Notes under the pieces: generated by a model | What the model was told of the DNA's origin: nothing | Databases searched by the model: none | The model's input: only the letters and a program-made list of their open reading frames with translations | Shown here: positions 4,758 through 9,563 of the stretch, piece by piece | Layout of the letters: each line of letters opens with the position of its first letter | How positions within the stretch are numbered: position 1 is the first letter of the stretch | Source of the DNA: Pseudomonadota bacterium | GTDB taxonomy: Bacteria > Pseudomonadota > Gammaproteobacteria > Burkholderiales > Methylophilaceae | Direction of reading: 5' to 3' | Assembly (NCBI GenBank): GCA_029781535.1 | Contig: JAKOWL010000243.1 | Span: 1 to 36,891, forward strand | Length of the DNA: 36,891 bases | Made by a program: the position numbers and the translations under genes

Positions 4758-4789
4758 CAAGGCTTTAAAAGTTGAAGGAGGCAAATTCA

Positions 4790-5545
4790 ATGAATGTAGG
4801 AATGATAGGGTTTGGTAAAACGGGGCGCGCCGTCGCATCTGTTTTGCTTGAATCAGAAAAGACTTGTCTAAAATGGGTTGTTAGGGGATCCAACGTATTG
4901 CAGCATCGGTCAGTTCCAGAATTTCTGGGTATACAAAGTGACGAGCCTGGATTGATCTACAGTAAAGATGAATTCAACATTGAGCAACTGATAGAGCTGC
5001 AGCCTGTAGACGTTATAGTCGATTTTTCTTCAACGCAGGGATTGGAGTACTATGGTGATATAGCTGCTACACATGGAGTCACTATCATTAGCGCTGTTTC
5101 TCAATACGAGCAGTCAAATTTGGATCACTTGAGGGCATTGTCAGAAAAAACTGTGGTGATGCATTCGCCGAATATCACTTTGGGAATCAACTTTTTGATG
5201 ATTGCCGCAAAAGTGCTCAAAAATATAGCGCCTCACACAGATATTGAAATTATTGAGGAGCATTTCAAGACCAAGCCAGAAGTCTCGGGGACAGCTAGGA
5301 TAATTGCAAAAAAACTGGATGTGCCTGATGATCAAATCAAAACCATACGTGCAGGTGGCATCATCGGTGTCCATGAGGTTTTATTCGGTTTCCCATATCA
5401 GACGGTGCGCCTGAAACATGAATCTATCGCACGTGAAGCATTTGGCAACGGGATATTGTTTGCCATTGAAAATCTGAAAAATAAGCCAAATGGCTTGTAC
5501 AGTATGGAAGATTTGCTAATCCCTTATTTTGATGCTGCGATTTAG
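4790..5545 (+). CDS. DapB-like dihydrodipicolinate reductase family protein (probable paralogue)
   Basis: MNVGMIGFGKTGRAVA Rossmann start preceded by AAGGAGG; DIEIIEEHFKTKPEVSGTA corresponds to the DapB EAHHRHKVDAPSGTA region; track start at 4772 is TTG. Confidence 0.75.
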   Translation: MNVGMIGFGKTGRAVASVLLESEKTCLKWVVRGSNVLQHRSVPEFLGIQSDEPGLIYSKDEFNIEQLIELQPVDVIVDFSSTQGLEYYGDIAATHGVTIISAVSQYEQSNLDHLRALSEKTVVMHSPNITLGINFLMIAAKVLKNIAPHTDIEIIEEHFKTKPEVSGTARIIAKKLDVPDDQIKTIRAGGIIGVHEVLFGFPYQTVRLKHESIAREAFGNGILFAIENLKNKPNGLYSMEDLLIPYFDAAI

Positions 5546-5674: not shown

Positions 5675-6679
5675 TCAGGTTTTGGATTCTGGTTCAAGCT
5701 GGTGCTTTTTAACTGCGCTGGGAGGCAAGCCATACCTGTTTTTAAATGCCCGACTGAAATGTGAAAAGTCATTAAAACCCCAGCGTAGTGCAGTCTCTGA
5801 TATGCTTCTGCTGTTATATCTGGAACTGGTCAAGTCATCATGGCAGCGCATCAATCTGCGTAGCCAGATATAGCGCATCAAAGAGGTATCTTCATCATGG
5901 AACAGTTCATTGATATACCGTGCTGACAGTCCGGTCCCGCGAGTGACTGTTTTCGTATCCAGGTCTGGGTTGTCAAGTTGCTGTTCCACAAAATCCTTAA
6001 CGCGGCGCAGCGATAAAGACCTGCTACGGCTCAAGCTGTAGTTTGATGGGCGTAGGTTGTTGAGCGCCATTGTAAACAAATCCAGCGACTGTTCAGCAGT
6101 AGCTTCGAAGGAGCCGCAAGTCATATGATTAGCTTGCTTTGCGATTGATTGTACGAAGCCTGATGCGATTGCACCAAGCCCTATTTCTCCATTGACCTTG
6201 CAAGCAGTATAGTGCTCAACTCCAGGCAGTCTCTCTCGCATCAATTTGCGGGGAATCGATATTATCAGCTTGGAAAAGCTTTTCGGGCAATGGATGCGAT
6301 GTGGACGCGTTGCATCATAGATCGTGATATCGCCTGGTTTCAGAAATACCTCGCGCCCATTTTGTTCAAGCTGATAGTCTCCGGACAGCAGGATCACACC
6401 GAAATAGGCGTCATGACTGACTGCCGAAGGCTCCTGCGGAAGCCTTTGAATGGTAATGGCGTTGGAATGGATGACAGAAAGCCGTAAGTCCTGCCAGGGA
6501 TATATGTTCATTTCATTGAACAGGTATTCATTTCTGGGAGAGGTGATATTTACATTGGCATATTCGCGGCCAATTACTTCACAAAGCCACTCACGCCTTT
6601 GCCAAGCGGGAATGTCTTCTGTAGAGAATATCATTTTATTGATGCTTAATGAGTCCTGATGGGAACCGTTTTTTTCCAT
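5675..6679 (-). CDS. AraC family transcriptional regulator with N-terminal AraC-binding-like domain
   Basis: C-terminal double HTH: TKTVTRGTGLSARYINELFHDE...SISETALRWGFNDFSHFSRAFKNRYGLPPSAVKK. Confidence 0.92.
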   Translation of the reverse strand: MEKNGSHQDSLSINKMIFSTEDIPAWQRREWLCEVIGREYANVNITSPRNEYLFNEMNIYPWQDLRLSVIHSNAITIQRLPQEPSAVSHDAYFGVILLSGDYQLEQNGREVFLKPGDITIYDATRPHRIHCPKSFSKLIISIPRKLMRERLPGVEHYTACKVNGEIGLGAIASGFVQSIAKQANHMTCGSFEATAEQSLDLFTMALNNLRPSNYSLSRSRSLSLRRVKDFVEQQLDNPDLDTKTVTRGTGLSARYINELFHDEDTSLMRYIWLRRLMRCHDDLTSSRYNSRSISETALRWGFNDFSHFSRAFKNRYGLPPSAVKKHQLEPESKT

Positions 6680-8368: not shown

Positions 8369-8396
8369 TTGACTGTGCAAAAGTTGCGAGTAGAAT
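8369..8396 (+). promoter_or_regulatory. Sigma70-like promoter with GC-rich discriminator
   Basis: TTGACT (8369-8374), 16-bp spacer, TAGAAT (8391-8396), followed by gcgcccc; predicted start close to 8403-8404. Confidence 0.6.
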
Positions 8397-8403
8397 GCGC
8401 CCC

Positions 8404-8493
8404 ATGCAAACAACGAACCAAATCAATTTCGTACTAGCCCGCAAAGCCCTGTGGCGTGTAGCTACAACTTGCGGCGTTTGCTATTTTTCTTGA
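8404..8493 (+). CDS. Candidate 29-aa leader peptide MQTTNQINFVLARKALWRVATTCGVCYFS
   Basis: Short ORF directly after promoter and overlapping mutually exclusive hairpin arms upstream of the EamA transporter. Confidence 0.4.
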   Translation: MQTTNQINFVLARKALWRVATTCGVCYFS

Positions 8494-8569
8494 TTCAACT
8501 AGCAACCGCAGGCCCTCTCTGCGGTTGATCTGATTCTTTCCCAGTATGTGCGGCCTGTTGAAAGAGGCC
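8470..8569 (+). promoter_or_regulatory. Attenuator-like / RBS-sequestering structured 5' leader
   Basis: Arm 8470-8483 pairs with 8500-8510 (11 bp, 3-nt bulge); 8503-8511 pairs with 8519-8527 (9 bp perfect); 8511-8518 and 8552-8556 can each pair with 8563-8569/8565-8569 over the SD. Confidence 0.45.
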
Positions 8570-8572
8570 AAC

Positions 8573-9493
8573 ATGCAAAATAAAAATTCACAAACAATAG
8601 ACAAAGACTCACTTGTCGGAGCGACATTGGTGCTGGTTTCCGCTATCGCTTTCTCAGCCAAGGCGGTGTTTGTCAAACTGGCTTATGCATACTCAGTTGA
8701 TGCGGTGACTTTAATGGCATTGCGTATGTTGATGTCCATACCATTTTTTGTAGGGCTTGCCTATATTGCAAGTCATAAGGAAACAACGCCTTTATATTTC
8801 AGGGATTGGGTAATGATTATTGCCTTAGGTATTTCTGGCATGTATTTGTCGCAGCTATTCGATTTTATCGGTTTGGCACATGTGTCTGCAGGCATGGAGA
8901 GAACGATACTTTTCCTTTATCCAACTTTCACTGTGCTGATATCGTCCCTGATAACTCAACGGCCTATCGGTAAACGGGTAATACTGGCCTTGGTGCTTAG
9001 TTATTCCGGAATATTGTTAGTCGCTGCTCATGAGCTTTCCTTTAATAACAGTCATAGTGCAATGATCGGTGCAGGATTTGTATTTCTTAGCACTTTGACT
9101 TACTCCAGCTATCTGGTGGGAAGCGGTTCTGTAATTCACCGGATTGGTACGCAAAGGTTCACATGCTACACCATGCTGGTGGCAGCCACGGCTGTGTTAG
9201 GACATTTCGCGCTGATGCATCCAATCTCAACCCTTGAGGTTCCGTCGCGAGTATATGAATTAGGTCTGGCAATGGCCATCATCTCAACAGTTTTGCCGAT
9301 GATAATGCTCAATGCAGGCATCAAGCGGGTTGGTAGTAGCAAGGCAGCACTTATCAGTAGTGTTGGCCCTGTGTCGACGGTCTTGCTTGCAGCAGTCTTC
9401 CTGAATGAAACAATCAACTTGCGGCAGATAATGGGGACTGGTTTGGTGTTGGCAGGGGTGTTGATTATTACAATGGATAATTCTAGAAAATAG
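8573..9493 (+). CDS. EamA/DMT family transporter
   Basis: Ten hydrophobic segments, two EamA repeats (LVGATLVLVSAIAFSAKAVFVKLAY...; ...SSVGPVSTVLLAAVFLNETINLRQIMGTGLVLAGV). ATG 8573 has SD AAAGAGG; track ORF starts at 8546. Confidence 0.88.
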   Translation: MQNKNSQTIDKDSLVGATLVLVSAIAFSAKAVFVKLAYAYSVDAVTLMALRMLMSIPFFVGLAYIASHKETTPLYFRDWVMIIALGISGMYLSQLFDFIGLAHVSAGMERTILFLYPTFTVLISSLITQRPIGKRVILALVLSYSGILLVAAHELSFNNSHSAMIGAGFVFLSTLTYSSYLVGSGSVIHRIGTQRFTCYTMLVAATAVLGHFALMHPISTLEVPSRVYELGLAMAIISTVLPMIMLNAGIKRVGSSKAALISSVGPVSTVLLAAVFLNETINLRQIMGTGLVLAGVLIITMDNSRK

Positions 9494-9526: not shown

Positions 9527-9556
9527 GAAAAAAGGGCTGACATTTGTCAGCCCTTT
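9527..9556 (-). terminator. Intrinsic terminator of the tRNA/lysC-side transcript (possibly bidirectional)
   Basis: AAAGGGCTGAC/GTCAGCCCTTT 11-bp stem (9531-9541/9546-9556), minus-strand T-rich tail. Confidence 0.75.
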
Positions 9557-9563
9557 ATTTAAT

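Follow-up and report, generated by a model that had tools for sequence, protein, structure and literature searches.

The closest described relatives of the leader analysed here are the trp-operon attenuators, the translational attenuators of the erm/cat type, the TnaC leader and the Cys leader peptides of actinobacteria. In the trp-operon attenuators (E. coli trpL; S. meliloti trpL/rnTrpL), a mini-ORF carries its Trp codon at arm 1, the pairings 1:2, 2:3 and 3:4 exclude each other, and the outcome is set by the position of the ribosome. A study of S. meliloti trpL compared leaderless constructs with constructs bearing a Shine-Dalgarno (SD) sequence (PMC7298713). The leader of the eamA transporter gene described below shares the Trp-containing mini-ORF and the exclusive pairings, and its outcome is predicted to be set by the ribosome in a similar way. 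However, it has no terminator or T tract, its predicted output is translation initiation, reached through additional arms (D, E and F), its target is a DMT transporter gene and not trp biosynthesis, and it contains one or two Trp codons which are not consecutive. The likeness is one of topology; no relation in sequence is apparent.

In the erm/cat systems, as is proposed for the eamA leader, a leader peptide governs whether the downstream gene has its SD and start codon paired. In the eamA leader, however, the SD-pairing arm would be reached by a relay in which helix B:C traps arm D, the arm sequences are unrelated, no drug link is apparent, and the predicted effect of a ribosome that has reached the end of the ORF is to turn the gene off, not on. 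TnaC, a case of arrest induced by free tryptophan, shares with the eamA leader a short leader peptide and one key Trp preceded by K or R, whereas the Trp-to-stop spacing of the eamA leader is variable, its peptide does not end in proline, and the predicted pause lies upstream of arm A instead of at the stop codon. A TnaC-like fixed spacing was considered and rejected, as it fits the Methylophilaceae (13 codons from Trp to stop) and fails in other families. Trp and Cys leader peptides have also been described in actinobacteria, and no conserved terminator-like hairpins were found for the cys-operon leaders (PMC1262725). The Methylophilaceae subset of eamA leaders likewise has Cys codons near the stop; unlike the actinobacterial leaders, the eamA leaders do not conserve Cys as a group, and their arms are explicit and covarying. 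Other published uORFs include one that senses translation (PMC12218461) and the copper uORF of a Bordetella (PMC9426467). A search of the open-access literature retrieved no EamA/DMT-gene leader of the anatomy reported here. The first half of the eamA leader is like a trp attenuator, lacking the terminator of that class, and its second half is like a translational attenuator; it would be a form of ribosome-mediated attenuation that the literature searched does not describe.

A conserved leader 5' of eamA

The window, that is the whole stretch of 36,891 nucleotides that was analysed, comes from a member of the Methylophilaceae. A preliminary description had pointed to an attenuator-like region 5' of an EamA/DMT transporter gene, and this observation is confirmed: the region is a real, conserved RNA leader. 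Its features, with the gene that follows, are these (window coordinates):

8369-8396, + strand: promoter, TTGACT (8369-8374), 16-nt spacer, TAGAAT (8391-8396); read directly and by scan
8404-8493, + strand: mini-ORF of 29 codons, MQTTNQINFVLARKALWRVATTCGVCYFS, ATG at 8404, probably leaderless
8436-8446, + strand: arm Z (protector), pairs with arm A in the local fold; unsupported by the swap test
8450-8466, + strand: hairpin P1 (8450-8455 with 8461-8466) inside the mini-ORF; covariation, swap z -5.3
8452-8454, + strand: Trp codon TGG, the sole codon found in every leader
8468-8483, + strand: arm A, holds two Cys codons, pairs with Z or B; A:B swap z -4.0
8500-8512, + strand: arm B, pairs with A or C; swap test, covariation
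8508-8514, + strand: arm D, the 3' end of B and the B:C loop, pairs with E (8552-8558); D:E swap z -6.3
8518-8527, + strand: arm C, pairs with B; B:C swap z -6.5, covariation
8544-8558, + strand: arm E, pairs with D or F; folding, swap test
8565-8576, + strand: arm F, SD-adjacent region and eamA AUG, paired by E in the OFF fold; E:F swap z -6.6
8573-9493, + strand: EamA/DMT transporter gene, the regulated gene; Pfam PF00892, E 1.1e-36
9531-9562, + strand: intrinsic-terminator-like site after eamA, found by scan

The promoter and the 29-codon ORF (8404-8493, ATG at 8404) had been noted before, and both were read from the sequence at the same coordinates. TTGAC and TAnnnT elements spaced by 16-18 nt occur in 50 of 51 leaders, with the start codon 6-10 nt past the -10 element (6-8 nt outside the Methylophilaceae). 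Since this distance is so short, transcription should start on or just before the mini-ORF start codon, as had been suspected, and the mini-ORF is probably leaderless. The first start codon after the -10 element opens a reading frame that includes the Trp codon in 49/51 leaders, despite ORF lengths ranging from 24 to 35 codons. As in the trp/his attenuators, a short ORF conserved in frame is thus present at the start of the transcript, and it is presumably translated. In one genome (L049, G007) 4 extra bases put the RKALW codons in another frame than the promoter-proximal ATG, and an in-frame internal ATG sits six bases before the Arg codon; either the start has been re-wired or the assembly contains an error.

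The N-terminal residues of the mini-ORF vary freely, and the motif R-K-A-L-W-L (Methylophilaceae) or K-R-L-W-L (elsewhere) is kept through synonymous codon changes. Trp was found in all leaders (55/55), with one or two Trp codons each and a single one in most members; the distance from Trp to stop extends from about 10 to 17 codons. In 17 of the 22 leaders from outside the Methylophilaceae, the Arg codon before Leu-Trp is CGA, and synonymous Arg codons do not occur in its place. This CGA may be slow to decode in itself, or it may be fixed by pairing.

Covariance models yielded accepted leaders in 55 genomes, all but one of which belong to a single order, where they are spread over roughly twelve GTDB families. 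The model R1 detected the leader in 29/187 genomes of the family and 25/399 of the order, and a second model, R2, added four matches, including the one outside the order (G874). Three weak matches (L100, L101 and L102, E 3e-5 to 5e-4) were dropped, having neither eamA nearby nor the leader anatomy. A blastn search of 101 relatives, with the leader as query, detected it in 11 further genomes. When the regions 5' of eamA orthologs were read, most had the same anatomy, in each instance with a mini-ORF; alignment of these regions, the check proposed with the preliminary description, gave covarying arms and a retained ORF. Compared with dinucleotide shuffles, the fold of the whole window leader is better by 3.9 sd (z -3.87; 0/200 as good), and its recurrence with covariation upstream of orthologous eamA genes places it far beyond chance. 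The Rfam scan that had also been suggested returned no matching family, at either the gathering or a relaxed threshold.

An EamA/DMT gene directly follows the leader in 55/55 cases, if a pseudogene and a copy truncated where its contig ends are counted. The same two are the exceptions in a tblastn search, which placed an eamA ortholog next to all other leaders: the truncated copy still has the eamA N-terminus, beyond which the contig stops, and the pseudogene retains about 21 codons of eamA. In the pseudogene case (L095, G084) the remnant runs into unrelated sequence, and the leader, still recognisable, is the lowest scoring of those accepted; decay of the leader and of the gene goes together. 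Outside the Methylophilaceae the genes around the leader-eamA unit are not conserved, and a search for conserved neighbours as a functional clue was dropped for that reason. Because eamA always follows while the neighbours change, the leader belongs to eamA itself. In the window, eamA is followed by the terminator-like site and then by two tRNA genes on the other strand, which indicates that it is probably a single-gene unit. Some eamA orthologs have no leader, for example L007, L008 and L009. Others (L010, L013 and L015, in G050, G035 and G031) have divergent leaders that the model missed, with mini-ORFs carrying KRLW, KQLWLW and RLW and a B:C-like hairpin of different sequence. The leader family is probably wider than counted.

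Alternative pairings of the leader RNA

Several pairings had been proposed for the window, and most were recovered. The two Cys codons (8470-8472 and 8479-8481) do lie inside arm A. Helix A:B joins 8470-8483 to 8500-8510 by 11 bp with a 3-nt bulge, exactly as drawn before, and helix B:C, measured here as 8503-8512 with 8518-8527, has 10 bp including one G-U. The view that A:B and B:C exclude each other agrees with the swap test and with covariation. The local GGCCT/AGGCC hairpin is present (8552-8556 with 8565-8569); it extends to 8544-8549 with 8571-8576, so that the eamA AUG is paired too. By contrast, the segment after B does not pair with the SD region as had been thought: arm D pairs with E (8552-8558), and the swap test for D:F gave z +1.5. 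Two elements had been missed: hairpin P1 and arm Z, which would protect A. Our scan bore out the absence of a T tract after B:C, and no intrinsic terminator of the trp/his type (G+C hairpin and U run) was found between 8404 and 8573.

The chain Z:A, A:B, B:C has the 1:2/2:3/3:4 topology of trpL, its Z:A member being seen by folding alone. Beyond it, arm E has two rival partners, one being the B:C loop (D) and the other the eamA start region (F); this indicates that the output is translation initiation and not termination. A leader helix thus pairs the SD and start codon, and an alternative fold frees them. Among close relatives, the best fold is A:B with D:E in some and B:C with E:F in others.

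In the covariance-model alignment, 15 of 21 pairs of P1, B:C and E:F had changed on both sides. The covariation score for these helices was 0.249, against 0.03-0.07 for slid partners, in an alignment that was fitted to them and so leans towards them. Helix A:B, which is outside the model, scored 0.143, slid versions reaching 0.115 at most. We also used an alignment-free swap test, in which own arms were compared with arms from other genomes for 34 representatives and 5000 permutations. Own arms paired better for P1 (z -5.3), A:B (-4.0), B:C (-6.5), D:E (-6.3) and E:F (-6.6), with 0/5000 permutations as good in each case. Relatedness may inflate these values; the control pairings A:C, Z:C, D:F and A:E share the same relatedness, and for them own arms were no better in the 34 representatives. 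The alignment A2 puts arm E in the wrong place in several rows, and D:E and E:F were therefore judged mainly by the swap test. The pairing Z:A appeared in the local fold of 29/34 representative leaders and found no support in the swap test on the same set (z +0.9), which makes Z:A the weakest arm. Judged from the sequences, the conserved leader, its covarying helices, the ORF frame, the Trp codon and the fixed eamA partner are established.

Proposed model of a ribosome-mediated switch

In the switch that we propose, the mini-ORF would begin at the 5' end or no more than a few bases from it, and the first ribosome would read it. With no ribosome, Z would pair with A and leave B for C. A ribosome standing at the stop codon would block A, and B would again pair with C. 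Formation of B:C would lock D in the hairpin, and E would then pair with F, which would hide the SD and start codon of eamA (OFF). A ribosome slowed on the KRLW/RKALW codons, most likely at Trp, would cover Z and leave A free; A:B would then form before C is made, D would capture E, and the eamA start would stay open (ON).

In order to model these states, the ribosome was represented as a mask reaching from 15 nt on the 5' side of the A-site codon to 12 nt on its 3' side, and the transcript was folded to arm C. A ribosome at Trp gave an expected 7.4 A:B pairs; without a ribosome the figure was 3.5, and for one at the stop codon it was 1.0. The value at Trp exceeded that at the stop codon in 34/34 representatives. 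When the transcript was extended to F, D:E amounted to 8.3 pairs with B:C barred and 2.0 with A:B barred. At full-length equilibrium, B:C and E:F win nearly always, whatever the ribosome position, and in the window E:F beats D:E even in the A:B state. Since equilibrium favours the closed fold nearly always, the switch must be kinetic, and we predict that the choice would be made during transcription.

Together, the exclusive arms and the modelling support the earlier suggestion of a ribosome-mediated, attenuator-like leader with translational control. We consider it likely that the leader, taken as a whole, is such a switch; this judgement covers the whole ribosome-mediated translational switch and not the Trp signal inside it.

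Possible pause signal and role of the transporter

What would slow the ribosome is less certain. Trp is the only invariant codon, and Trp-tRNA shortage is therefore our best guess; the Trp codon as pause signal within the switch is a possibility to which we give a little less than an even chance. The Arg, Lys and Leu residues beside it are also conserved, so that Trp is not singled out, and a nascent-peptide effect or a general slowing of the ribosome is nearly as likely as Trp-tRNA shortage. In the former, the peptide RKALWL/KRLWL would arrest the ribosome together with an effector (a metabolite or a drug), and the same RNA relay would turn eamA on. The R/K-(A)-L-W-L motif, kept at the amino-acid level with synonymous changes while other residues vary, is consistent with this, and TnaC and the erm leaders are precedents (PMC8429421, PMC8274638). 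However, the same codons are also constrained by the pairing of Z with A, the distance from Trp to stop (about 10 to 17 codons) makes a TnaC-like arrest at a fixed spacing from the stop improbable, and no recognised arrest motif such as RAPP is present; taken alone, the nascent peptide is an unlikely determinant of the pause. We are equally doubtful of a sensor of general translation status, in which any slowing over the first half of the mini-ORF, whether by an antibiotic or by a shortage of ribosomes or amino acids, would open eamA with no codon as signal. The masking suggests that any footprint over Z and not A should give A:B, the leaderless start would suit such a sensor, and ermC-type leaders and the S. 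meliloti DUF1127 uORF leader sense a slow-down of translation (PMC2965389, PMC12218461), but the invariance of Trp in 55/55 leaders would be left unexplained.

Cysteine, which the preliminary description had favoured as signal, is not supported by the comparison between families. A ribosome stalled on the Cys codons would cover A, B:C would form and eamA would be off, so that a cysteine exporter would be made only with plentiful cysteine. This would make sense for an exporter; in E. coli, EamA/YdeD exports cysteine-pathway metabolites, and Methylophilaceae leaders mostly have 2-5 Cys codons in or beside arm A. Beyond the Methylophilaceae, however, 8 of 22 leaders have no Cys codon and 11 have one (19/22 together), with the switch intact, so that Cys is not conserved as a codon at a sensing position; the Cys codons that do occur mostly fall in arm A. 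Within the Methylophilaceae the Cys codons follow the pairing of arm A, with which they coincide: they are TGC, and the synonymous TGT is nearly absent where A pairs, as an RNA constraint would predict. The window EamA has no match to the NCBIfam O-acetylserine/cysteine exporter, and two homologs score about 20 bits against a cut-off of 472. Attenuation on cysteine codons is accordingly very unlikely. The alternative reading of the start region offered earlier, leaderless translation or a ligand-sensing RNA without a translated ORF, divides in two: the leaderless start is probable, and ligand sensing is disfavoured. A metabolite-binding riboswitch with an incidental ORF would account for the strong covariation and the translation-control output. 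Against it, Rfam gave no family even at the relaxed threshold, the alignments contain no conserved unpaired core, and the frame is kept in 49/51 leaders despite length changes; it is the least probable of the readings, and we hardly credit it.

We infer that the ribosome would stall on the mini-ORF, that Trp-tRNA shortage may be the signal and that the transporter may have a tryptophan-linked role. DMT proteins are usually exporters. If EamA is one, its induction by starvation would be unexpected, and a role in uptake or in the export of an intermediate would fit better. The window EamA falls well short of the cut-offs of YddG and other curated NCBIfam models: it scores 55 bits against the YddG aromatic amino acid exporter, with a cut-off of 300. 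This similarity was dropped as a clue to the substrate, unrelated DMT control paralogs scoring equally high. Elsewhere in the window, positions 4772-5542 (+ strand) encode a DapB-like protein (NCBIfam dapB, 106.8 bits against a cut-off of 122), possibly a paralog with another role, and positions 5675-6679 (- strand) an AraC-type regulator whose nearest NCBIfam model is FeaR (159 bits against a cut-off of 199).

The leader is a conserved, testable regulatory RNA without an Rfam entry. Our tentative proposal, which we think somewhat less likely than not, is that it represents a widespread, undescribed class of leaderless Trp-codon attenuator, in which a two-stage RNA relay would control the translation of an orphan DMT transporter. 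If this is true, two hairpin exchanges, the one coupled to the other, would pass the position of an upstream ribosome on to a start codon that lies about 120 nt further along. If the Trp step holds, the leader would be among the few attenuators that control the translation of a transporter from a leaderless mini-ORF. A transporter with no assigned substrate would then gain a specific hypothesis, induction by tryptophan shortage or by ribosome slowing, and as the target of a Trp attenuator it would belong to tryptophan/aromatic metabolite homeostasis in beta-proteobacteria.
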